A stretch of DNA of 64,000 bases. Source: Thermodesulfomicrobium sp. WS. GTDB lineage: Bacteria; Desulfobacterota; Desulfovibrionia; Desulfovibrionales; Desulfomicrobiaceae. Numbering within the stretch: position 1 is the first letter of the stretch; every line of letters starts with the position of its first letter. The DNA is taken from the NCBI RefSeq assembly GCF_027925145.1, contig NZ_AP027130.1:1178001-1242000 (forward strand), given 5' to 3'. A model generated the notes under the pieces. It ran no database searches and had not been told where the DNA came from. It worked only from the letters and a program-made list of their open reading frames with translations. Both the position numbers and the translations under genes were made by a program. Shown one piece after another: positions 47,484 through 62,925 of the stretch.

Positions 47484-49532
47484 ATGAAAAACCTCAAGCT
47501 CGGAGTCAAAATCGGTCTGGGTTTTGCCCTGGTTTTGGCCATCATGGCCACGCTCGGGGGGATCACCTTCTTTGGGGCGCGTCAGGTCGCGGACGGGGCG
47601 GATCACATGGCCAATGCGTATGTGCCTGAGGTGGGCATTGCCGCGGACGTGCAGGCCAACACCCAGTCCATGATGTACGCGTGGCGCGGGTATGCCTTTA
47701 CCAAGGAGAGGCGGTTTCTCGACCAGGGCCGCGCCGCCATCGAGGAATTGAAAAAGTCTCTGGCCGAGGCGGATGATTTGTCCGTCAAACGGCCGGACTT
47801 GGTGAAGCTCAAGGAGGCAATTGCCCCCCTCAAGGCCAAGGCCCATGAGTACTTCCAGTTGGCCGACGCCAGCGTGGCCGCCACCGAGGCCCAAGAGAGA
47901 GCCATGGCGCGGATGCAGGAACTCGCTGGAGAGTACATGCGCCAATGCTATGCCTTTTTGGAGAGTCAAAATCAGGCCATGGCGAAGGAAGTAGCTGAGG
48001 GTGCTTCGGCGGAGCGTCTGCGGGAGCGCTTGGATAAGGTTACCTGGATCAATGATCTCATCGACATGGGCAATGCCGTGATCCAAGCCACCTACCAAGG
48101 CCAGGTGGAACGCAAGCCTGAACGCATGGAACAGGCAATGTCCAATTTCGAGAAGATGGCGGCCACCGTGGACAAATTGCGGACCATCACCCGCCAGGAG
48201 GTCAACCTGAAGCAGCTTGCCTCCATCCAGCAGGCGGCCCTTGCCTACCGCGACGAGATGCGCGCCCTGCGTGCCGCCTGGGTGCAATTGGAAGATCTGA
48301 ACCGGCAGCGCACCGCCAAGGGAGAGGAAGTCCTGCAGGCAGCGGCGGCGCTCCTTGCCGCCGGGCGGCAGGGGATCGCGCACTTGGCACAGGGTTCCGT
48401 GGCACAGGCTTCGACCATGATCACCACGACTGGGGTCGGGCTTGCTGTGGGGCTTGTCCTCGCGGCGGCCATTGCCGTGTTGCTTACCCGGTCCATCACC
48501 GGACCGGTGAGCCAGGGCGTGGCCTTTGCCCGTAAGCTCGCGGAAGGGGATCTCACCGCTAGCGTGGACGTGGATCAGAAGGACGAGATCGGCACCCTCG
48601 CCCAGGCCCTGCGGGAGATGAGCGAGCGCTTGCGGGAGGTGGTCTCCCAGGTGCAGAGCGCGGCGGACAACGTGGCCTCGGGCTCGGAGGAATTGTCCGC
48701 TTCGGCGCAGCAGCTTTCTCAAGGCACGACCGAACAGGCGGCCTCCATCGAGGAAGTGAGCTCGAGCATGGAGCAGATGAGCGCCAATATCCGGCAAAAC
48801 GCGGACAATGCCTCGCAAACCGAGAAGATTGCCGTGCAGGCGGCCAAAGACGCCCAGTTTAGCGGTGAGGTGGTCTCCCAGGCCGTGGACGCCATGAAGA
48901 AGATTGCGGAGAAAATCTCCATCATCGAGGAGATCGCCCGGCAGACCAATCTCTTGGCCCTCAATGCGGCCATCGAGGCCGCTCGGGCAGGAGAGCACGG
49001 CAAAGGCTTTGCCGTGGTGGCCGCCGAGGTGCGCAAACTGGCCGAGCGCAGCGGGGCGGCAGCGGCGGAAATCAGCGAATTGTCCTCGTCCACCGTGGGC
49101 GTGGCGGATCAGGCAGGGCGGATGCTGGCCAAGCTCGTGCCGGATATCCAGCGCACCGCCGAGCTGGTGCAGGAGATTTCCGCCGCCAGCAAGGAGCAGA
49201 GCGCGGGCGTTGCCCAGATCACCACTGCCATCCAGCAACTGGATCAGGTCGTGCAGCAGAACGCCGCTGCCAGCGAAGAGATGGCCTCCACTTCGGAGGA
49301 GCTCTCCAGCCAGGCCGAACAGTTGCAGAGCACCATCGGCTTCTTCCATCTTGGCGGGGCTTCTCGGGTAAGCCGTCATGTTGCTCGTGTCGCTTCCAAG
49401 CGGCAGCCAGCCATCAAGGCGGCCCCATTGCCCGCCCCCAAGGCAGCCCCCAAGGCAGCCCCCAAGGCGGAAGGCGGCATTGCCTTGGACCTGGGCCGGG
49501 ACGCCGAGGACGATGAGTTTGAACGCTTCTAA
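47484..49532 (+). CDS. methyl-accepting chemotaxis protein
   Basis: A 682-residue transducer: membrane segment near residues 8-30 ([20 protein letters not shown]), a helical periplasmic domain of about 280 residues, second segment ([17 protein letters not shown]), HAMP, then the signalling domain with the tip [20 protein letters not shown]. The C-terminal tail has a 12-base tandem repeat (about 49436-49470) giving [10 protein letters not shown]. No NWETF-type ending. The start at 47484 has GGAGGAG upstream. It heads the chemotaxis run. Confidence 0.93.
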
Positions 49533-49548
49533 CCCGATGGAGCCGACC

Positions 49549-50028
49549 ATGAGCGAGAGTAGCGCCAAGCAATACCTGACCTTTACCTTGGGGGGAGAGA
49601 CCTTCGCCTTGGAGACGGAACGGGTGCGGGAAGTGATCGAGCTTGCCCCCATCACGCGCATCCCCCAGACTCCGGAGTTTTTGCGCGGGGTCATCAATCT
49701 GCGCGGGCATGCCGTGCCGGTGGTGGACTTGCGCCTGCAGTTCGCCTTGGCGGAGGTGCGGGACACGGTGAATACCTGTATCATCATCGTGGAGACGCAG
49801 ATGGATGGAGAGCGGATGGCCATGGGTGCCATCGTGGATTCGGTGCGGGAGGTGTTTGAAATGGACGATGCCGATATCAGCCCACCGCCGCGCATGGGCG
49901 CGAGCGTCAAATCCGAGTTCTTGCGCGGCATGGGCAAAAAGGACGACGCATTCATCATGATTCTCGATATCGACCGGGTCTTCTCTCCCGAGGAACTGGC
50001 GGTGGTGCAAGGGAGCGTTGGCGCGTGA
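49549..50028 (+). CDS. cheW: chemotaxis coupling protein
   Basis: A 159-residue CheW, coupling receptors to CheA. YLTFTLGGETFALETERVRE, ITRIPQTPEFLRGVINLRGH, and AVPVVDLR are typical. ATG 49549 is chosen for the GGAG six bases upstream; ATG 49537 is also possible. Its stop overlaps the next gene as GTGA. Confidence 0.95.
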   Translation: MSESSAKQYLTFTLGGETFALETERVREVIELAPITRIPQTPEFLRGVINLRGHAVPVVDLRLQFALAEVRDTVNTCIIIVETQMDGERMAMGAIVDSVREVFEMDDADISPPPRMGASVKSEFLRGMGKKDDAFIMILDIDRVFSPEELAVVQGSVGA

Positions 50029-51758
50029 GCGAGATACCCCTTTCCCATGTCCCCAGTGTGGATGCCTTGGAGGCCGCTTTGCGCGCCCTGGCATCGCGGG
50101 CTGCTGCCCCGGTGCTGGAGCGGGAAGCGGCCTTCTTGGCCTTGGGGCAGGGGGTGTTTGGGCTGCATGCCCAGATGCGGGATTTGGCGGCGCGGGCTCA
50201 AGACTTGGCGGCGCGGCTGGGTGGGGTCGAGCTCACCGAAGTGGTGGGGGGGCTTGAAGCCGAGCTCGAGAGGCTTCGACAAACGGCCCAGACTGGCGAC
50301 AACGAAGGCGTGGCCCTCTTGCGCGAGGCGGCCGTGGCCCTGGAGGGCCTGCGCCGGAAGACGGCGCCGCTCATGCGGTTGGTGAAGACCCTCACCATGT
50401 TGGGGATTGCCGTGAAGATCGAAAGCGCCCGCATGGGTGAGGAAGGCCGTGGTTTTGCCGCCTTGGCCGGAGACGTGGAGTCCCTTGCCCGCCGCATTCC
50501 CGAACATGCCGCCAGCATCACCTCCGAGACCACGGCCATGGCCGCAGAACTCACCCAACAGACCCGCTTGGCGGAGATCCGTTTGGTCCAAGAACATACC
50601 CTGGTGGCCACGGTGCTGGAGCGCTTGAGCGCGGAGATTGTGCTTTTGCGCACGCTTGTCACCCGCATTGGGGAACTGGGGACCACCATCCCGCGCTCGG
50701 CCGAGGCGGCATCCTCCCACATGAACGCCCTGGTGGCTTCGGTACAATTCCACGACATGGCCCGTCAGCGCCTCATGCATGTGGACCAGGCCCTGACCCA
50801 GGCGTGCGCGGCGGCTGATGCCCTCGAACAGACCGCCGCCGAAGACGTGTGGGGCATTGCCGCCTTCATGGTGGAGGTGGCGCGCCTGCAGGCGCGCCAG
50901 GTGGATGCCTGCGCCAAGGATTTCGCCCAGGCCCTGGCGGAATTTGCCCAGCACACCCAAGCCCTGGGACAGGAGGCCTTCGCGCTCGCCCAAGCCGCGG
51001 CAGCGTGCTTTGGCGGTGCGCAGGGTTCGGTGCTGGACGGCGTGCAGCGGGAAATGGCGACCCTGGAGCACCATGTGGCCCAGGCCGCGGACCAAGAGGC
51101 GGCTTTGGCCGCAGAGTTGCGTCAGGCCCAGCAGCGGTTGGCGGGGTTGGAACAATGGGTGGAAGGCATCGAAGATATCGGTGCCGAGATCGAGATCGTG
51201 GCCCTCAATGCCAGCATCCGGGCGGCGCGCACGGGGAGCACGGGCCGGTGCCTTGGGGTCATCGCCTCGGCCATTCAGGAGATGTCGGTGGAGACCCGCG
51301 GTCATACCCGCGCCTTGGGCAGGGCCTTGGAAGAGATCGTTGCCGTGGCCGCCCGCCTGCGCACCCGCGAGCATGCCACAGGCATGGTGGCAGGTGTGCA
51401 GCGGTTTTCGGAACTGGTGCAGCGCATGGCTGCCGTGGCCGCTGCCACCGACGCCGAGCTTGCGGCCATGGCGGCCCTTGCCACGAAGGTGCAGGACTTG
51501 AGCAAGGCGCTCCAAACCCTGGTGCAGGAGCAGCATGCCGCAGTGGCGGAGATGGAAGCCCTGGTGGGCGACCTGGAAGCGGCCGTGGCGCCGTGGGAAG
51601 TCCATGCCCAAGCCCTCGCCAAGGCTCACCAGCCCGAGGCCCTGGCTGCCCTTGTGCACCGCTACACCATGGAGAGCGAGCGTATGGTGCACCACGGGGC
51701 CCATGGCGATGTGGAAGACGGCCTTGGCGATGACGCCGACAATATCGAGCTTTTTTGA
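50025..51758 (+). CDS. soluble MCP-like protein with two degenerate signalling tips
   Basis: A 577-residue all-helical protein with no membrane segment. Two regions each resemble the MCP hairpin tip: AVKIESARMGEEGRGFAALA near residue 126 and EIEIVALNASIRAARTGSTG near residue 388, each followed by a helix like the MCP return arm. The linking part is helical and HAMP or sensor modules are not evident. It ends DDADNIELF, an acidic tail. GTG start at 50025, coupled to cheW. It may act as a scaffold or methylated regulator; the role is unknown. Confidence 0.75.
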   Translation: MSEIPLSHVPSVDALEAALRALASRAAAPVLEREAAFLALGQGVFGLHAQMRDLAARAQDLAARLGGVELTEVVGGLEAELERLRQTAQTGDNEGVALLREAAVALEGLRRKTAPLMRLVKTLTMLGIAVKIESARMGEEGRGFAALAGDVESLARRIPEHAASITSETTAMAAELTQQTRLAEIRLVQEHTLVATVLERLSAEIVLLRTLVTRIGELGTTIPRSAEAASSHMNALVASVQFHDMARQRLMHVDQALTQACAAADALEQTAAEDVWGIAAFMVEVARLQARQVDACAKDFAQALAEFAQHTQALGQEAFALAQAAAACFGGAQGSVLDGVQREMATLEHHVAQAADQEAALAAELRQAQQRLAGLEQWVEGIEDIGAEIEIVALNASIRAARTGSTGRCLGVIASAIQEMSVETRGHTRALGRALEEIVAVAARLRTREHATGMVAGVQRFSELVQRMAAVAAATDAELAAMAALATKVQDLSKALQTLVQEQHAAVAEMEALVGDLEAAVAPWEVHAQALAKAHQPEALAALVHRYTMESERMVHHGAHGDVEDGLGDDADNIELF

Positions 51759-51777: not shown

Positions 51778-52089
51778 ATGTTCCATGCCCATCTGGACCC
51801 GCACTGTGCGACCCTCACCCTGCACGGTGACCTTGGCATCGAGCATGCCCAGGAGATCCAGCAGCACCTGCTGGCCGCCCTGCCCAAGGCGGGGACCCTG
51901 ACCCTTCACCTGGCGGCCGACCGCGTGGACTCCAGCTTTGTGCAGCTTTTGATCGCCTTGCAGCGGGAGGCGGCCGCCCGGGACATCGGCCTGAAGGTGT
52001 ATGATGCTGGGGGCATGGTGGCGGCGTGGTGCCAGCGTTTGGGGGCTGGGAGCTTGTGGAAGAACCTTGGCGCGGAGGTGGCGGGATGA
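51778..52089 (+). CDS. STAS-domain protein
   Basis: A 103-residue protein with STAS-like order: ATLTLHGDLGIEHAQEIQQH, TLTLHLAADRVDSSFVQLLI, then RDIGLKVYDAGGMVAAWCQR. The Ser in VDSSFVQLL is at the position phosphorylated in SpoIIAA-type antagonists. STAS proteins within chemotaxis clusters are usually partners of kinases or phosphatases. A strong GAGGAG site supports the start at 51778; the stop overlaps cheY as ATGA. Confidence 0.8.
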   Translation: MFHAHLDPHCATLTLHGDLGIEHAQEIQQHLLAALPKAGTLTLHLAADRVDSSFVQLLIALQREAAARDIGLKVYDAGGMVAAWCQRLGAGSLWKNLGAEVAG

Positions 52090-52445
52090 AACGGATCCTG
52101 ACGGTGGACGATTCTTCCAGTGTGCGCCAGATGGTGCGGCTGACCTTGGAGGATGCCGGATTCGAGGTGGTGGAGGCCGTGGACGGCAAGGATGCCTTGG
52201 GTAAGCTCAACCCGGCGCCGGATTTGGTCATCACCGACCTCAATATGCCCAACCTGGATGGCATTGGTCTGATCCGCGCCCTGCGCGCCGAGGCCGCCAC
52301 CCGCTTTACCCCCATCCTCATGCTCACCACCGAATCCCAGGAGGCCAAGAAGCAGGAAGGCAAGGCCGCTGGGGCGACGGGATGGATCGTCAAGCCCTTC
52401 AAACCGGATCAGCTGGTGGCGGTTGTGCGCAAAGTGCTGCGTTAG
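52086..52445 (+). CDS. cheY: CheY-type response regulator
   Basis: A 119-residue receiver: acidic pocket LTVDDSS, phosphoacceptor in LVITDLNMPNLDG, Thr in MLTTESQ, Lys in GWIVKPFKP. It is a stand-alone receiver between the STAS gene and cheA, so probably the CheA output to the motor. Starts within the previous gene as ATGA. Confidence 0.93.
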   Translation: MKRILTVDDSSSVRQMVRLTLEDAGFEVVEAVDGKDALGKLNPAPDLVITDLNMPNLDGIGLIRALRAEAATRFTPILMLTTESQEAKKQEGKAAGATGWIVKPFKPDQLVAVVRKVLR

Positions 52446-52453
52446 GAGGGACC

Positions 52454-54517
52454 ATGTCTATGGATCAGAGAGCCGCCCTGCACCGTCAGGCCTTTGTGGA
52501 CGAGGCCGTGGATCTGCTGGCTGAGTGGGAGACATGCATGCTCGCCCTGGAGCAGAGCCCGGATGCGCAGACCGTGGACCGGCTGTTCCGTGCCGTGCAT
52601 ACCCTGAAGGGCGCGGGCGGCATGTTCGGCTTCGAGGATTTGGCCGCCTTTCTCCACCACGCCGAGACCCTGCTCGACCGAGTGCGGGCAGGGGAGGTAG
52701 CCGTCAGTCGGCCTTTGGTGGACCTGTTTCTCGCGTGCCGCGACCATGCCGCAGCCATCCTCGATGGACGGGGGGATGCGGGCGTTACCCAGGGGCTGGT
52801 GGATCAGCTGGCCGCATGGGGTGCTCCCGGGCAGTCTCTGCCCGGTCCTGCCCAGCGTTCTTCCGGTGCAGCGCCCAGCGCGGCGGCGCCGACGCCTGCC
52901 GAGGAGCAGCCCCGGCTGTGGCGCATCCGCTTTCGCCCCCAGGAAAATATCTTTCGCACCGGCCTGGATCCGGCGAGTTTGGTGGAGGAGCTCATGGGGC
53001 TGGGAAGCGCTCAGGTGGTGCTGCTTGGCGATGCCGTGCCCCCATTGAGCGCCCTGGACCCCGAGTCCTGCGCCCTGGCGTGGGAGGTCCTGCTCACCAC
53101 CACCGCTGCCGAGCCCACCATCCGTGATGTGTTCATCTTTGTGGAGGGCGATGCCGAAGTGCGGGTGGAGCCGGTGCCCGTGGAAGACGCCCCCCCTCGG
53201 TTGGGCGAGCTCCTTGCCCGGCGGGGAGATGCCGCCCCGGAGGCCATCGAGGCGGCCCTGGCCCATCGCAAGCCCGTGGGCGAGGTCCTGGTGGAAGCCG
53301 GTGTGGTGGCCCCGGCCCAGGTGGAAGCGGCCCTCGCCGAGCAGCGCAGCATCAAGCAGTTGAAAGACGCCTCAGCAGCGGCCGAGGCCGCCACGGTGCG
53401 GGTCCCGGCCGCCAAGCTGGACGCGCTGGTGGACCTGGTAGGGGAGTTGGTGACCGCCCAGGCGCGGCTCAGCCAAGTGGCCATGGAGCAGGGCAGCGGG
53501 GCCTTGTCCGCGGTGGCGGAGGAGATGGAGCGCCTCACCGACGCCTTGCGCGATACGTCATTGAGCCTGCGCATGCTTCCCATCGGCTCGACCTTCGCCC
53601 GTTTCCGCCGTCTGGTGCGGGACTTGTCCACAGAACTTGGCAAGGACATCGCGCTCGTCACCGTGGGCGAAGACACCGAACTCGACAAGACCATGCTCGA
53701 GCGCCTGGGGGACCCCCTGGTGCATCTTTTGCGCAACAGCGTGGATCACGGCATCGAGCCCCCCCATGAGCGTCAACGCCAGGGCAAACCTGCTCAAGGC
53801 ACCATCCGCCTGGTGGCCGAACATGCCGGTGGCGAGGTGGTTTTGACCATCGAGGATGACGGCCGCGGCATCGATGTGGAGCGGGTTCGGGCCAAGGCCC
53901 TGGAAAAGGGGATTATTTCTGCGGACGTGACGCTCAGTCACGAGGAATGCCTCCAGCTCATCTTTGCCCCGGGGCTCTCCACGGCCCAAAAAGTGTCCAA
54001 CGTTTCCGGCCGCGGGGTGGGCATGGACGTGGTCAAGCGCAATATCGAGGCCCTGCGCGGCCGTATTTCCATTGCCAGCACCCTGGGGCAGGGCACCACC
54101 ATCACCATCCGTCTGCCGCTCACCCTGGCCATTATCGATGGCCTGTTGGTGCGGGTGCAGGACGCCTTCTTCGTGCTTCCCCTGGCCGCTGTGGAGGAAT
54201 GCGTGGAGCTCACCGCCGAGGCCAAGGCCGCCTCGTCGGCGCGGCTCATCGCCTTGCGTGGGGACTTGGTGCCGTATGTGGAGGTGCGCCAGGTGTTCGG
54301 TGTGCCGGGCACACCGCCTCCCATCGAGCAGGCGGTCATCGTCCGGGTCTTGGATCGGCTGGTGGGCGTGGTGGTGGACGCCGTGGTGGGTGAGCATCAG
54401 ACGGTCATCAAGAGTCTGGGCCGGGTCTTCCAGCACGTGCGCGGGGTTTCCGGGGCCACGATCCTTGGTGACGGCACCATTGCCCTCATCGTGGACCTTG
54501 CTGCCTTGGTGCTATGA
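52454..54517 (+). CDS. cheA: chemotaxis histidine kinase CheA with a GspE-N/MshEN-like insert
   Basis: A 687-residue kinase. Hpt with His49 (FRAVHTLKGAGGMFGF), a domain RIRFRPQENIFRTGLDPASL near residue 157, then an insert at about residues 250-300 with tandem motifs RLGELLARRGDAAPEAIEAA and PVGEVLVEAGVVAPAQVEAA resembling T2SS ATPase N-terminal (GspE-N/MshEN) repeats; then dimerisation helix, HATPase with HLLRNSVDHGIEPPHE and GRGVGMDVVKRN, and a CheW-like end. AGGAGGG precedes the start. The insert is an unusual addition to standard CheA. Overlaps cheR as ATGA. Confidence 0.93.
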   Translation: MSMDQRAALHRQAFVDEAVDLLAEWETCMLALEQSPDAQTVDRLFRAVHTLKGAGGMFGFEDLAAFLHHAETLLDRVRAGEVAVSRPLVDLFLACRDHAAAILDGRGDAGVTQGLVDQLAAWGAPGQSLPGPAQRSSGAAPSAAAPTPAEEQPRLWRIRFRPQENIFRTGLDPASLVEELMGLGSAQVVLLGDAVPPLSALDPESCALAWEVLLTTTAAEPTIRDVFIFVEGDAEVRVEPVPVEDAPPRLGELLARRGDAAPEAIEAALAHRKPVGEVLVEAGVVAPAQVEAALAEQRSIKQLKDASAAAEAATVRVPAAKLDALVDLVGELVTAQARLSQVAMEQGSGALSAVAEEMERLTDALRDTSLSLRMLPIGSTFARFRRLVRDLSTELGKDIALVTVGEDTELDKTMLERLGDPLVHLLRNSVDHGIEPPHERQRQGKPAQGTIRLVAEHAGGEVVLTIEDDGRGIDVERVRAKALEKGIISADVTLSHEECLQLIFAPGLSTAQKVSNVSGRGVGMDVVKRNIEALRGRISIASTLGQGTTITIRLPLTLAIIDGLLVRVQDAFFVLPLAAVEECVELTAEAKAASSARLIALRGDLVPYVEVRQVFGVPGTPPPIEQAVIVRVLDRLVGVVVDAVVGEHQTVIKSLGRVFQHVRGVSGATILGDGTIALIVDLAALVL

Positions 54518-55356
54518 GTGGCATCCCTACCATGACCGAAAGCGAGCTCACCGCGCTGGGAAAGCTCATCTACCAGGAGCTGGGTATCGTCGTCACCCCG
54601 GCCAAGAAGACGATGCTGGAAGCGCGGCTCTACCGCCGCCTGCGGGCGCTGGGACTCCGTTCGTATGGCGAGTACCTGGACTACTTGCGCTCGGTGCGGG
54701 GCATGGAAGTGGAGATGCCGCAGCTGACCAGTTGCGTCACTACCAATACCACCTGCTTTCTGCGCGAGGCCCAGCATGTGGCTTTTCTTACGGATACCGT
54801 GCTGCCGGAGTTCGTGGCCGCCCACCCCGGCGAGACCTTCCGCCTGTGGAGCGCGGGATGCTCCTCAGGGGAGGAGCCATACACCTTGGCCATGGCCATG
54901 AGCGAGTTCGCCGAGCGGCATCCACGGTTTTCTTTCACCATTCTGGCCACGGACATCTCGAACCGCGTCCTGGAAGAGGCGCAGCGCGCCGTCTATCCCA
55001 TGGAAGACGTGGACTGCCTGCCGCTGGCGTGGAAGCGCAAGTATCTTTTGCGCAGCAAGGACCGTTCCCGCAATCTGGTGCGGGTCGCGCCGGAGATCCG
55101 CCGGCTGGTGCAGTTTCGGCGCCTCAACTTCATGGAGCCCTTTGCCCTGCGGGAGCTCATGCACACCATCTTTTGCCGGAACGTCATGATATACTTCGAT
55201 CGCGCCACCCAAGGCCAATTGGTGGCCAAATTGTGCAACGTGTTGGTGCCGGGCGGCTATCTCTTCATCGGGCATTCCGAAAGCCTCACCGGCCACGATG
55301 TGCCCCTGCGCCAGCGCGCTCCAGCGGTGTACCAGCGCTTGGCCGCCAAAGACTAG
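54514..55356 (+). CDS. cheR: chemotaxis protein methyltransferase
   Basis: A 280-residue SAM-dependent MCP glutamate methyltransferase. N-terminal helical domain, then [20 protein letters not shown] (SAM site), ILATDISNRVLEEAQRAVYP, HTIFCRNVMIYFDRATQ and LFIGHSESLTG. Coupled to cheA. Its TAG is shared with the stop of convergent cheD in the palindrome CTAG. Confidence 0.95.
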   Translation: MSGIPTMTESELTALGKLIYQELGIVVTPAKKTMLEARLYRRLRALGLRSYGEYLDYLRSVRGMEVEMPQLTSCVTTNTTCFLREAQHVAFLTDTVLPEFVAAHPGETFRLWSAGCSSGEEPYTLAMAMSEFAERHPRFSFTILATDISNRVLEEAQRAVYPMEDVDCLPLAWKRKYLLRSKDRSRNLVRVAPEIRRLVQFRRLNFMEPFALRELMHTIFCRNVMIYFDRATQGQLVAKLCNVLVPGGYLFIGHSESLTGHDVPLRQRAPAVYQRLAAKD

Positions 55357-55940
55357 CTTCGGGGATCATCGCCATGAGATTGGGGTGCCTTGACGCCGTG
55401 TGGGGCAGGGGAGCGGACCGATGCGGTGCTTGGAGCGATTTCCTCAAAACGCCGCAGACGTTTGAGCAACACTTCTCCTGTCCCCGAATGGAAAAGGAGT
55501 TTGGAGCCGCAGTCTCCGCCCAGGCGCTCCGCCACTACGGGGATGCCGAGCTCGGCCATCAGGGATCGGGCGGCGTCGGCGTTGCGCGTGCCCACGGCGC
55601 TGTCGTTTTTTTGGCCCATGGAGACGGCGCCGCCGAAGAGTTTCGCCACCAAGGCGTTGGGAGAGATGCCGCGGCGGGCAAAGAGCCGCACCAGATGCCC
55701 GGTTCCGGCGTCCACGTAGCGGAAAGGGGAATTTCCGTCCTCGTCGAGAGGGGGCGCGGGCTGGTGGGGGAGAAAGGCATGGAAGATGCCGCCCACCTGG
55801 TGCTCGGGGGCATAAAGCACCACGGCGACGCAGGAGCCGAGCACCGTGTGCACCACGGTGGGCCGGACAAAGAGGCCGCCTTGGCCGATATGGAGGTAGC
55901 GCTGGGGGAGTCCTTGCCAGCGAGGGTCCCAAATATCCAT
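55353..55940 (-). CDS. cheD: chemoreceptor glutamine deamidase CheD
   Basis: A 195-residue protein, opposite in strand to the rest. Catalytic Cys in TVLGSCVAVVLY and His in GGIFHAFLP, with NALVAKLFGGAVSMG and a GTRNADAARSLM region. CheD deamidates receptor glutamines and works with CheC. The start at 55940 (AGAGG upstream) is preferred to 55982. It converges on cheR and is head-to-head with the CheR-like gene. Confidence 0.88.
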   Translation of the reverse strand: MDIWDPRWQGLPQRYLHIGQGGLFVRPTVVHTVLGSCVAVVLYAPEHQVGGIFHAFLPHQPAPPLDEDGNSPFRYVDAGTGHLVRLFARRGISPNALVAKLFGGAVSMGQKNDSAVGTRNADAARSLMAELGIPVVAERLGGDCGSKLLFHSGTGEVLLKRLRRFEEIAPSTASVRSPAPHGVKAPQSHGDDPRS

Positions 55941-55980
55941 GACGGGTGTGCCTCTCGAGGGAATGTGTGGTCCCAAGTAC

Positions 55981-56652
55981 ATGATGTCGGAGATTGAGTC
56001 GAGCTTTCAGTCCGTTTGGGCGCAGGAACTTCCCCATATCCTGGCGGCGCTCACGCCGGTCACCGGGCTGGTGCACGATCCGGAGTTGTGCGCTGCCCTG
56101 GACGAATTGGTGGCTCGGCGTGGACTGGGAATCCGCCGGGTGGTGGTGCTGAGCGCAGATCCAGGCCTGGAGGCGTACACCGTGGCCATGCGTCTTTCGT
56201 GGCATTGGCGGCACACGCCGCAACCCCCGTTCCAGGTGTTGGGACTGCTGCTGTGCCATGAGGATCTGCAGACCGCCCGGCGCGGGGTCTATCCCATGGA
56301 GGTCCTGCCTTCTCCGGTGCCGTCATGGCTTTCCCCGTGGATTACCCGCCATCGTCGCCAGCCGAGGGTGCGCATCGCGCCTGCAGTGCGCTTTCGGGTG
56401 CGGTTCCGCCACCTGCCTTGGCCCTGCGCCGTGCGTTTGCGAGAGGCGGCGGATCTCCTTTGGTGTTGCGGGGTGTTCGAGCCTTTCGTTTCGCCGTTGG
56501 GGGGCCGCTTGGTGCTGGAAGCAGCGCGGGTGGTGCGGCCGGGAGGTTTTGTCATCACCGATGTGTCCCTTGGAGGGGACTGCCGCGAGCGCGGTCTGCG
56601 CCCCCTTGCCCCAGGGGTGTACCAAACCGTCCATTGGTGGAGGGTGTCATGA
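55981..56652 (+). CDS. degenerate CheR-like protein
   Basis: A 223-residue protein whose order of motifs parallels CheR but with changed key residues. [20 protein letters not shown] is aligned with the SAM motif [16 protein letters not shown] of CheR but has lost the [27 protein letters not shown] parallels [40 protein letters not shown] parallels the C-terminal GGYLFIGHSE. It is probably inactive or altered. Start uncertain (55939 and 55963 also open). Coupled to cheB as ATGA. Confidence 0.65.
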
Positions 56653-58567: not shown

Positions 58568-59608
58568 ATGGATGAATTGCAGGAAATCTTGAACGAGTTT
58601 GTGGATGAAGCCACGGAAGTCTTGGGAAACGTCATGGTGGACCTCATGGATTTGGAAAACGGCCACGATGACGAAGTGGTGAACCGCGTGTACCGGGCCT
58701 TCCACTCGGTGAAAGGCAACGCCGGGATGCTGGGCATGGAGCGTCTTTCGGCCTTTGCGCACAAGGCCGAGGACGTGCTTTCCTTGGTGCGCGAGCGCCG
58801 TCTGGAGCCGGACAAGGAACTGGTGAGTCTGCTTTTGCGGGCCGTGGACGCCATGACCGCCATCCTTGAAGACGCCCGCTGCGGCGGCGGTGATGGCCGG
58901 GATGTGAGCGAACTGGCGCAGCAGTTGGCTGCGGTGGTGGAGCGGGTGGGGCCGCCCAAAGGCAAGAAACGCTCCCCCAGTGCAGTGGAGTTGGAGTGCC
59001 GCATGTCCGAAAAGATGCTGGAAAAGGAGCCCAGCGAGACCGTGCCCGAGCCCAGCGTGGCTGCTTCCCCAAAGAAGGCGCCAGCCCCGTTGGCGCCGCA
59101 AGAACCCCGCCCCGAGCCGCAACCGCAGCGTCCCTTGCAGCCTCGGAAGACTTCGCAGCCCAAGCGTCCGGCGCGGAACGGCTCGGGTCCGCTCCATATC
59201 TTGGTGGTGGAGGACGACTTTTCCGCCCGCCAGATCTTGATGAATTTCTTGACCCAATTTGGCGTCTGCCACGTGGCCAAAGACGGGCTCGAGGCCATCC
59301 ATGCCTTCATCCGGGGCCATGAGGTCGGCCAACCCTATGACCTCATTTGCATGGACATCAAGATGCCGGTCATGGATGGCCTTCTTGCGGTGCGCACCAT
59401 GCGGGAGATCGAACGCGGCAAGGGCATCGAAGGCACCGCGGAGGAGGCGGCCATTGTCATCACCAGTTCGGTGGAAGATCCGGTGGCCATCATCAAGGCC
59501 TGCTACGAGTGCGGGGCGAACTATTACTTCCTCAAACCGTTGGACATGGATCAGGTGCGGCGGCAGTTGTTCAAGCTGGGGCTGGTGGCCTTGCCAAGCG
59601 AGGGATGA
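58568..59608 (+). CDS. Hpt-receiver protein (second, long linker)
   Basis: A 346-residue protein with Hpt (YRAFHSVKGNAGMLGMERLS), a proline-rich linker of about 80 residues (residues 130-205), and a receiver (HILVVEDDFSARQILMNFLT, ICMDIKMPVMDGLLAVR, TSSVEDPVAIIKACYE, YYFLKPLDM). It shares EDDFSAR and the overall plan with the preceding gene, so the two probably arose by duplication or have parallel roles. Confidence 0.85.
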   Translation: MDELQEILNEFVDEATEVLGNVMVDLMDLENGHDDEVVNRVYRAFHSVKGNAGMLGMERLSAFAHKAEDVLSLVRERRLEPDKELVSLLLRAVDAMTAILEDARCGGGDGRDVSELAQQLAAVVERVGPPKGKKRSPSAVELECRMSEKMLEKEPSETVPEPSVAASPKKAPAPLAPQEPRPEPQPQRPLQPRKTSQPKRPARNGSGPLHILVVEDDFSARQILMNFLTQFGVCHVAKDGLEAIHAFIRGHEVGQPYDLICMDIKMPVMDGLLAVRTMREIERGKGIEGTAEEAAIVITSSVEDPVAIIKACYECGANYYFLKPLDMDQVRRQLFKLGLVALPSEG

Positions 59609-59610
59609 CC

Positions 59611-62600
59611 ATGGCGACTCCAAGCTACTACGTGGGTATCGGCGCCTCGGCCGGGGGGCTGGAGGCCATCGAGCACTTCTTCCGTACCATGCCCCGGCAC
59701 TCGGGCTTGGCCTTTATCATTGTCCAGCACCTGTCGCCGGACTACAAGAGCCTGATGGTGGAGCTCCTCTCCAAGAAGACCACCATCCCCGTATACCGCG
59801 CCGAGGACGGCATGGAGGTGGAGGCGGACACCATCTACCTCATTCCACCCAAGAAGAATCTCTACATCTTCCATGGCCGGTTGGTGCTCAACGAACAGGA
59901 GACGACCCGGGGCATCAATCTGCCCATCGATATCTTTTTGCGCTCCCTTGCCGAAGATCAGGGGGAAAAGGCCATTGCCGTCATCCTTTCCGGCACGGGC
60001 AGCGATGGTATGCGCGGGGTGCGGGCGGTCAAGGAGCATGGCGGCATGGTCATGGTCCAGGACGAGTCCACCGCCAAGTTCGACGGCATGCCCAAAGCCG
60101 CCATCTCCACCGGCCTGGTGGATTTCATCCTGCCGCCCGAGGACATGGCGGCGCAGCTTTTGGCCTTTGTCCGGCGGGAACCTTTGCTGGTGGAGAGCGG
60201 GCACGAGGACGGGTCCGAGAAGCATGGCATCACCAAGCTCTTTGCCTTGCTCAAGAATCGAACCAAGGTGGATTTCTCCTACTACAAGCCCAGCACCGTG
60301 AACCGCCGCATCGAGCGGCGCATGATGGTCACCCGCACCACGAGTCTCAAGGAATATATCGAATACGTCCAGTCGCATCCGGCGGAGATCGATGTCCTCT
60401 ACAAAGAGCTGCTCATCGGCGTGACCAGCTTCTTCCGGGACCCTGAGGCCTTTGAGTACTTGGCCCAGGAATGTCTGCCCGCACTCTTCCAATCCATTAC
60501 CGACCGCGAGGTGCGCTTCTGGGTGGCAGGGTGTTCGTCCGGGGAAGAGGCCTACAGCCTCGCCATCTTGGCGCGCGAGTGCATGGACGCCACCGGCGAG
60601 CACAAGCCGGTGAAGATCTTTGCCACGGATTTGGACCAAAAAGCCATTCAGGTGGCCGCCGCCGGGGTGTATCCCGAGAGCATCGCCGCTGATGTGAGCC
60701 CGGGGCTTTTGGGCAAATACTTTCACAAAAACGGCGATTCCTTCCAGGTGGCGCGCAGTGTGCGCGAGATGGTGGTCTTTGCCCGCCACAACCTCATCTC
60801 CGATCCGCCCTTTACCAAGATCGATCTCATCAGTTGCCGCAATCTGCTCATCTATCTTCAGCCCGCTATCCAGCACAAGGTGTTCGAACACTTCAATTTT
60901 TCCTTGAATGCCGGCGGGATCCTCTTCCTTGGCTCCAGCGAGACCGTGGGGGATGCTGCCGGATATTTCGAGCCGGTGCACCACAAGTTCAAGATCTTTC
61001 GCTCCGTGGGCAAGCAGAGCCCGGCCAAGGGGACGGACTTCAAGCCCCTGTCCGCGCCTTTGCCCGGGGGGCTGAACTATGCTCCCTATTTCCAGATGCG
61101 TCAGGGGCTCGGTTCGGCGGATGAGCGGGTGCTCGAGCGCTTTCTTTTGGGGATCGAGGGGGACGTGCTGCCGCTTTCGGTCATCGTCACCGAGGGCCTG
61201 GAGGTGGTGCACATCTTCGGGGATGCCTCCAGCGTGTTCCGCATCCCTTCCGGACGGCTGTCCATGGAGCTCTCCTCCTTGGCGCGCAAGGACTTGTCGG
61301 TGCTGCTGACAAGCTTGGTGCAAAAGGCCTTCCGCAGCGGCGAACAGCAGGAGACCACTGTCATGGTGGGGGAGGGGGATGCCCGGGAGGCCATGACCAT
61401 CCGCGTGCGGTTGTTGCCCCAGCGCAAGGGATATTCCAATCTGGCGGCGCTGCTGTTTTTGCCGGCGGCATCCGTGCAGCATGAAGGCAGCCCCGTCGTG
61501 TATGACCTCAGCAAGGAGAGCGAGGAACGTATCCGCGACCTGGAGGCCGAACTGCAGCTTACCCGCGAAAATCTTCAGGCCACCATCGAGGAGTTGGAGA
61601 CCTCCAACGAGGAGTTGCAGGCAACCAACGAGGAACTTCTGGCCTCCAACGAGGAGCTGCAATCCACCAACGAGGAACTCCAATCCACCAACGAAGAGCT
61701 CCATACAGTCAATTCCGAGTACCAGAACAAGATCTACGAGCTCATGGCCTTGCACCACGACATCGACAACATTCTCAGTGCCACAGGCATCGGCATCCTC
61801 CTCGTGGACGAGAACAAGGCCATCCGGCGCTTTTCCCCGCCCATTACCCGCATCTTTTCCATCCTCGACCAGGACCTGGGCCGTCCCTTTACCCATATCA
61901 CCCACAGCCTCGAAGACGTGTCCTTGGCGGCCTTGGTGGACGAAGTCATGACCACCCAGAAGCCTGTGGCGCGCGAGGTGCGCGTCCGCGGCACCGCGCA
62001 AGTCTACCACATGCAGATCAGTCCGTATTCCGTGGGCCCGTCGGACTTTGCCGGGGTGGTGCTCTCCTTTTGGGACGTTACCGCCTCGGTGCGCATGCGC
62101 CAGGAGCTCTCCGTGTTGGAACATCGCCTGCGCGAGGCCATGCGCCTGGCGCGCCTGGGCTTTTGGGTGGGCCATGGGGTGGGGCTGGACCAATATTGGG
62201 ACGAGGAGACCTTTGCCGTGTTCGGTCTGCCCCCCAAGAACGCCATGACCCTGACGGAGATCGTGGATCTCTTCGATGCCGAGTACCGGCCTTTGGTGCA
62301 CGACGCCTTGTTCCGTCTGGGCAAGGAGCGCACACCGGTGGACATGATCGCCCGGTTGCGTGCGGACTTGGGCCCCAAATGGATCCGCATTCTGGGGCGC
62401 TGGGAAGAGGACCCCAAAGGCCCTGAGGTGCGTGGGGTCTATCAGGACATCACCCACGTGCAGGAACTGCGCGAGCGCTTGGCGGTGCTGGAGCGCGGGC
62501 AAGGCCGTGGGCATGAGAGCGTGTACCGCTATTTCTTCGACACCCTTGCCCACGGGGCCGTGATCCAGGACGCCCACGGCCGGATTGTGGATGCCAATCC

Positions 62601-62925
62601 CGCGGCCGAGGCCATTTTGGGCCGCAGCCTTGCCGCCATGCAGGGTCGTACCTCCGAGGACGATGAGTGGCGGGCCATCCGTGAGGATGGCACCCCTTTT
62701 CCCGGTGCCGAGCACCCGGCCATGGTGGCCTTGCGTGAGGGGCGAGAGGTCCTGGACGTGTCCATGGGCGTCTGGCGTCCGTCGGACCAGCGCTGGGTGT
62801 GGATCCGCATCAACTCCTATCCGGTGTTCTGTGATGGCGAGTCTCGGCCCTGTCGGGTGTTCACCGTGTTCGAAGAGGTGCGTCCCCAGGAAACGGCGGG
62901 GGCAGCGTCCAGGGAGCAGCGATGA
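59611..62925 (+). CDS. CheB-CheR-PAS hybrid chemotaxis protein
   Basis: A 1104-residue multidomain protein. CheB methylesterase-like ([44 protein letters not shown]), CheR ([53 protein letters not shown]), then a coiled coil of tandem heptads (repeats NEELQxTNEELxS, DNA 61585-61715), and at least two PAS-type modules ([36 protein letters not shown]). It lacks a clear kinase domain; the downstream histidine kinase is probably its partner. ATG 59611 has GAGGG seven bases upstream; ATG 59605 overlaps the previous stop. Confidence 0.9.

Follow-up and report, generated by a model that had tools for sequence, protein, structure and literature searches.

A double-tip, chemoreceptor-like protein with a CheZ-like motif encoded beside cheY in Thermodesulfomicrobium: a candidate receptor-shaped phosphatase

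The gene and its che cluster

The window analysed is a stretch of 64,000 nucleotides from Thermodesulfomicrobium sp. WS (contig NZ_AP027130.1, positions 1,178,001 to 1,242,000 of the forward strand). It contains a che cluster with the order MCP, cheW, the gene for a protein of 577 amino acids, STAS, cheY, cheA and cheR, with cheD on the opposite strand. The MCP gene (47484..49532, + strand) encodes an ordinary receptor with a 4HB/CHASE3-like sensor, HAMP and MCPsignal domains and the tail EDDEFERF, and cheW (49537..50028, +) a single CheW domain. The gene for the 577-aa protein (50025..51758, +) has a GTG start at 50025-50027, which overlaps the cheW stop at 50026-50028; this 4-bp stop/start overlap is the coupling to cheW that a sequence-only reading of the locus had proposed. 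3′ of it are genes for a STAS-domain protein (51778..52089, +), CheY with a single receiver domain (52086..52445, +), CheA (52454..54517, +), CheR (54514..55356, +) and CheD (55353..55982, − strand), all assigned by Pfam. Beyond cheD come genes for a CheR-like protein, CheB, an Hpt-receiver protein and a CheB-CheR-PAS hybrid of ~1,190 aa, the last two (58568-62925, 3′ of cheB) being possibly a second output of the cluster. A promoter and terminator scan gave nothing exceeding shuffles.

Translation of the 50025-51758 frame gives a chain ending DDADNIELF, as the same reading had stated, and also soluble as it had held: the peak 19-residue hydropathy is 1.46, without a membrane helix. Pfam finds no sensor domain in it. 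Relatives are present in 73 of 297 genomes of the class (E ≤ 1e-15; two of the 73, G169 and G295, count on a partial match only), and since its last two residues, L576 and F577, are also identical in 50/50 distinct orthologues, the protein is not a chance frame. A plasmid search with it gave no match.

When only ORFs similar to the che proteins of the window are considered, cheY and/or cheA is next downstream in 47 of 50 distinct loci for the double-tip form described below (own locus excluded), with cheY in 45. The exceptions are L009 and L013, which end soon after the gene, L017, where the cluster is upstream, and L073 and L079, which proceed directly to cheA. Within the che cluster of the window there is no cheZ, cheC or cheX. 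The genome has three CheA genes, one CheZ gene at 1921 kb and CheX/CheC-type matches at 301 and 1717 kb; that the 577-aa protein is the only candidate phosphatase of the genome is ruled out by this ordinary CheZ and the two CheX-type proteins. Three Geobacter genomes are described as without cheZ by BLAST (PMC2577667), and other Geobacter/Trichlorobacter records carry a gene for a protein of the 577-aa type. In D. vulgaris, motility halos are reported to require the cheA3 operon (PMC3944678), and that operon may be the equivalent of the present cluster.

Two tips, an internal duplication and the fold

Pfam MCPsignal matches the 577-aa protein in two stretches (E 2.4e-15, 57.3 bits; cut-off 34.6). 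Each half taken separately also exceeds the cut-off, with 34.9 bits for half 1 and 35.2 bits for half 2, and because no Pfam family beats MCPsignal in either, an unrelated origin of the halves is not indicated and the suggestion of two degenerate MCP tips stands. Tip 1, residues ~118-156 (50376..50492, +; TLTMLGIAVKIESARMGEEGRGFAALAGDVESLAR), is supported by this match and by conservation, and tip 2 lies at residues ~380-424 (51162..51296, +). Their degeneration is complementary: tip 1 retains E-S-A-R-x-G..G-x-G-F, whereas tip 2 retains A-L-N-A and has EAAR changed. Across the double-tip clade the canonical MCP tip is changed in both, whereas it is intact in the single-tip relatives.

Judged by profile alignment, the halves go back to an old tandem duplication. 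With 50 aligned relatives, hhalign of residues 30-270 against 280-535 gave E 3.7e-10 and probability 96.7 over 219 columns, and placed tip on tip and the QFHD region of half 1 on a degenerate second copy in half 2. The latter (residues 478-527; 51456..51605, +) has lost the D and the Q and is presumably inactivated. With two MCP-like hairpins in one chain, the protein would be expected to build by itself the four-helix bundle for which an ordinary receptor has to dimerise. An AlphaFold2 model (8 sequences, pLDDT 80.4, pTM 0.53) consists of long helices, with no break by DSSP at tip 1. VIA-align matched it to 8a3k, a designed single-chain antiparallel four-helix bundle, over 127 residues with rmsd 2.0 and Z 14.7, though helical bundles may score ~Z 13 from common arrangement alone. 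The match covers model residues 106..435, i.e. ~31 residues outside each tip, symmetrically, and the model thus suggests a four-helix bundle of one chain with both tips at the same end. In structure comparisons of the model generic helical bundles dominate and CheZ is not among the matches listed, which is uninformative.

The tip hairpins and coiled-coil bundle are what the protein shares with ordinary MCPs (PF00015), but it is without their sensor, membrane segment and CheR-tether consensus, and has in addition a DxxxQ motif. DosM of the V. cholerae F9 system is likewise described as having two tandem MCP signalling segments without a sensor domain (PMC7534058, PMC9321776). By that description, however, DosM is a rod with a signalling domain at each end and a triple CheW in its cluster, whereas in the 577-aa protein the modelled tips are apparently at the same end, the tips are degenerate and the neighbouring cheW is single-domain. 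Membership of the DosM type was set aside on the grounds of the cheW and of the tips.

The CheZ-like motif and the C-terminal tail

Outside the tips, the most conserved stretch of the protein is QFHDMARQ, residues 241-248. It is the core of a CheZ-like motif, residues 239-253 (50739..50783, +; SVQFHDMARQRLMHV), in which D244 is encoded by 50754-50756 and Q248 by 50766-50768. Q241, D244, R247, Q248 and H252 are identical in 50/50 distinct orthologues, as are Y, T and M at 547-549, R553, L576 and F577, and H243 is present in 49/50. These orthologues came from single-protein or full-length profile searches and are less biased than the wider set of 101 distinct members (score at least 50, all fetched loci pooled). 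In that set the D and Q of DxxxQ are present in 101/101, a figure which is partly selected because the profile that collected the single-tip members contains the motif. Besides Q241 only these two are unchanged in the wider family (DxxRQ, DMATQ, DITKQ, DRVSQ, DIIVQ), with F at 242 in 92 and R at 247 in 95 of the 101. Below that score are 47 ORFs, ordinary MCPs with some CheZ among them; the D and Q are present in 8 of these, 7 of which have the LTG of CheZ between. Of the 81 members measured, 67 have a tip-to-motif spacing of 99 residues.

Counted from residue 242 along a helix, D244, R247, Q248, E251, H252 and E255 fall together on one polar face with hydrophobic residues opposite. In the AlphaFold2 model the helix breaks at 240-241, directly before the motif, and this counts against a phosphatase reading. 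In CheZ an unbroken helix is expected at the corresponding place.

Some variation at the motif may be recorded. L073 and L079, the two loci with cheA directly after the gene and no cheY between, have S for F (QSHDIVRQ). Residue 243 is H in double-tip forms and mostly Q in single-tip forms, and many double-tip forms add HxH at the place in half 2 that matches 243, though the 577-aa protein and its nearest relative, L007, are without it. H243 and the half-2 HxH are a possible metal or signal site. A metal-binding reading that takes in H252 as well is less attractive for the 577-aa protein, given the lack of HxH in it and in L007.

The published CheZ signature is AxxFQ followed by DxxxQ (PMC7750401), and 15 CheZ sequences of the same bacterial family have SFQDLTGQ. 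In 1kmi_Z the DxxxQ is D143/Q147, in numbering counted from the alignment. Alignment of the family profile with that of CheZ by hhalign scored 36.7 (E 4.7e-4) and superposed both the D and the Q of the two motifs, compared with 25.8 for the best of 100 column shuffles and 27.6 for the best of 100 heptad-block shuffles. Without residues 236-256 the score fell to 21.8. A second, weaker CheZ alignment (E 0.064) lands on the degenerate copy in half 2.

An HMM of the 15 CheZ sequences was run against the 1,201 ORFs in the collected loci that are 180 aa or longer, dozens of MCPs included. Among its best 60 matches, the 17 CheZ ORFs were followed by 22 rows at the motif, from 21 distinct genes, every one a member of the family of the 577-aa protein (E 7.9e-8 to 0.011), with no ordinary MCP or other ORF among these 60; the 577-aa protein itself is also absent from them. 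Reciprocally, the family HMM matches 8 of the 17 CheZ ORFs at E ≤ 1e-5. With curated models the CheZ signal of the family stays below cut-off. PF04344 at E ≤ 0.5 matched 7 of 9 relatives, 6 of them across the motif and all below cut-off (22.5 bits for the best of the 9, cut-off 30.7); L118 was matched at a different place, and L117 and L130 were without a match. It also reaches L016 at the motif (5.9e-4, below cut-off), and gave no match in three gamma-proteobacterial members. With NF041271, a curated CheZ model, 3 of 4 relatives were matched at the motif, again below cut-off. The 577-aa protein alone has no CheZ match in Pfam at E ≤ 1, and among the best 60 PDB matches of the half-1 profile, which were MCPs and generic helical proteins, there was no CheZ.

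The likeness to CheZ (PF04344, 1kmi_Z) lies in a helical hairpin bundle whose C-terminal helix carries F-[QH]-D-x-x-x-Q, in an acidic C-terminal peptide with a hydrophobic end, and in a function tied to cheY. CheZ is ~215-250 aa and without an MCP tip, whereas the 577-aa protein is a receptor-sized bundle with MCP tips, made of one chain with one motif kept and one lost, and its tail is DNIELF and not of the DDLLxxLG type (the CheZ of this genome ends VDDLLAQLGL).

That tail, residues 572-577 (51738..51755, +), is a single copy in the 577-aa protein, and its form [VIF]x[LFY]F is present at the C-terminus of 97 of the 101 members. Many Desulfomicrobium-type relatives (L021, L023 and others) have DDNVELF in tandem repeats within their C-terminal ~100 aa, up to 8 copies per protein, and these repeats suggest multivalent docking of an abundant partner. 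That the partner is CheY is a guess by analogy. A CheR tether was rejected as the main reading of the tail, an [HFYW]xx[HFYW] C-terminus being found in only 1 of the 101 members. The MCP encoded a short way upstream ends DDEFERF (49510-49532), which fits the CheR-tether pattern, and so two tail types are present in one cluster. Shortly before the tail is the conserved segment RYTMESER (residues 546-553; 51660..51683, +); its Y, T, M and R553 are those invariant among the 50 orthologues, and a Y[TV]M..[QE]R is retained before the tail by the majority of single-tip relatives.

The wider family and a proposed function

A half-1 profile was searched against 395 genomes of the phylum, and 20 matches, chosen as frames shorter than the double-tip form, were fetched. 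They are of about 410-490 aa with a normal MCP tip in the alignment, and 19 of the 20 have an N-terminal hydrophobic stretch within the first 130 residues (19-residue mean 1.77 to 2.73); in the other, L136, it lies later because the frame is longer. All 20 have DxxxQ ~100 residues past the tip, as QFQDITRQ and variants such as DMATQ and DITKQ. A CheY-like ORF is present in 20/20 of these loci and CheA in 18/20, the other two being 3-kb contigs. At E ≤ 1e-17, a cut-off set after weaker matches proved mostly ordinary MCPs, the profile has matches in 63 of the 395 genomes, the motif having been read in part of the 63. In a FastTree tree with 12 ordinary MCPs as the root, the double-tip forms fall in one clade (support 0.952; three fragments, taken as cut by locus or contig ends, are included) with single-tip forms outside. 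On this sequence tree a single duplication, with loss of the membrane anchor, is therefore likely.

Proteins of this single-tip kind seem to extend to the gamma-proteobacteria. The McpA-like receptors found in stage 1 and 2 F7 clusters are described as an uncategorised class that arrays can form without; their C-terminus is conserved and, in P. aeruginosa, has valine in place of the CheR-tether aromatic (PMC7184735). By the same account organisms with an McpA-like receptor have cheZ in F6 and not F7 clusters, and stage 3 retains the F6 cheY/cheZ pair but has lost the mcpA-like gene. A Vibrio chromid record has cheA, two cheW, an MCP, cheR, cheD and another ORF (PAS-rich for the MCP and CheB-like for the last ORF are our own readings), followed by a 400-codon frame with QFTDIIVQ and the end VELF, which fits the McpA-like receptor of an F7 cluster. 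Plasmids of Aeromonas sp. BC14 and Pseudomonas sp. HR96 (L141, L142) have clusters in the order MCP, response regulator, STAS, CheA, MCP, in which the DxxxQ protein comes first; these members have QFQDRVSQ and end VTFF or ITFF. The McpA-like/CttP receptors (PA0180, VCA1088; PMC7184735, PMC7534058) are described as beside a che cluster with V or I at the CheR-tether aromatic, and the Vibrio F7 member has DxxxQ at the same place and the VELF end, PA0180 being compared by description. The 577-aa protein is also beside a che cluster and has a conserved C-terminus without CheR tether. However, McpA-like/CttP receptors are membrane-anchored with a single normal tip, whereas it is soluble and duplicated, with degenerate tips and no transmembrane segment.

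The reading favoured here, with a probability of roughly 0.6, is that the 577-aa protein is a receptor-shaped CheY-P phosphatase of CheZ type, docked to the array by its tips and with NIELF as a docking peptide. In its favour are the motif and its register, the family-wide conservation, the CheZ profile matches in both directions, the polar helix face, the cheY/cheA neighbourhood, the lack of cheZ, cheC and cheX in the cluster, and the confinement of cheZ to F6 clusters in organisms with an McpA-like receptor. Against it are the missing CheZ match of the protein alone, curated matches below cut-off in relatives, the absence of CheZ among the best 60 PDB matches of half 1, the other candidate phosphatases of the genome, the helix break and the different tail. 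Its two partial tips would dock it to the CheA/CheW array, so that the off-enzyme would sit beside the kinase. The invariant Q-F-H-D-x-x-R-Q, which lies on the descending helix of hairpin 1 at ~100 residues from the tip, would take the part of F-Q-D143-x-x-x-Q147 of CheZ: by analogy, D244 and Q248 would enter the receiver of phosphorylated CheY, whose gene is the second one downstream, and hold the water in position for hydrolysis. The NIELF tail may be a tether for CheY, comparable with the C-terminus of CheZ, or else for some other array protein.

Rather unlikely is a docking platform or phosphate sink whose DxxRQ surface and NIELF tail would hold CheY or another receiver at the array non-catalytically. 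The invariance of both motif and tail and the constant cheY neighbourhood agree with it, and up to 8 tail repeats in relatives are what multivalent docking would predict. However, binding alone would need no exact D and Q while R, F and H vary, and in both spacing and register the D...Q matches the catalytic pair of CheZ.

The sequence-only reading saw a purely structural array part, acting through its two tips as nucleator, cap or CheW titrator. Its description of a soluble, two-tip, cheW-coupled protein holds, and the two MCPsignal halves, the translational coupling to cheW and the precedent of DosM as a double-tip scaffold (PMC7534058, PMC9321776) speak for it; but it left out the invariant DxxRQ, YTM, R553 and L-F C-terminus. 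The tips are degenerate, yet these non-tip features do not vary, and a capping or titrating protein has no need of a CheZ-type active-site motif or of a fixed place beside cheY. As the whole function this is quite improbable, though docking to the array by the tips may be how the 577-aa protein is positioned, and the earlier idea then one part of the mechanism. It is very improbable that the protein is an unusual cytoplasmic chemoreceptor, sensing for instance through the His-rich level of H243 and H252 (49/50 and 50/50) and signalling normally to CheA, since despite its place in the MCP signalling superfamily it is without a Pfam sensor domain, its tips are changed at positions which single-tip relatives keep, and those relatives mostly have Q, not H, at 243.

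A broader and tentative extension of the phosphatase reading, which we consider possible though short of even odds, is that a whole superfamily filed as MCPs would be receptor-shaped CheY-P phosphatases and not sensors, with CheZ as a shortened, tip-less member. Its members would be the soluble double-tip form and, in Desulfobacterota-type genomes, Nitrospirota MAGs and gamma-proteobacteria, the membrane-anchored single-tip form encoded next to cheY-cheA, to which the McpA-like/CttP receptors of F7 systems would belong. This would explain the role of McpA-like receptors, the conserved C-termini and F7 systems without cheZ. No report of a CheZ motif in a chemoreceptor was found in the titles and abstract openings of the open-access PMC papers listed.

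If the phosphatase reading is true, chemosensory systems without cheZ beside cheY would have a phosphatase, and the McpA-like receptors, the role of whose C-terminus has been called ‘important yet unclear’ (PMC7184735), would have a testable function. It would also suggest how the off-enzyme can be placed directly at the kinase, and that CheZ may have arisen from chemoreceptors. The CheZ active-site signature on a chain of two degenerate tips suggests that in many bacteria the enzyme which terminates the signal is kept on a receptor-shaped scaffold.
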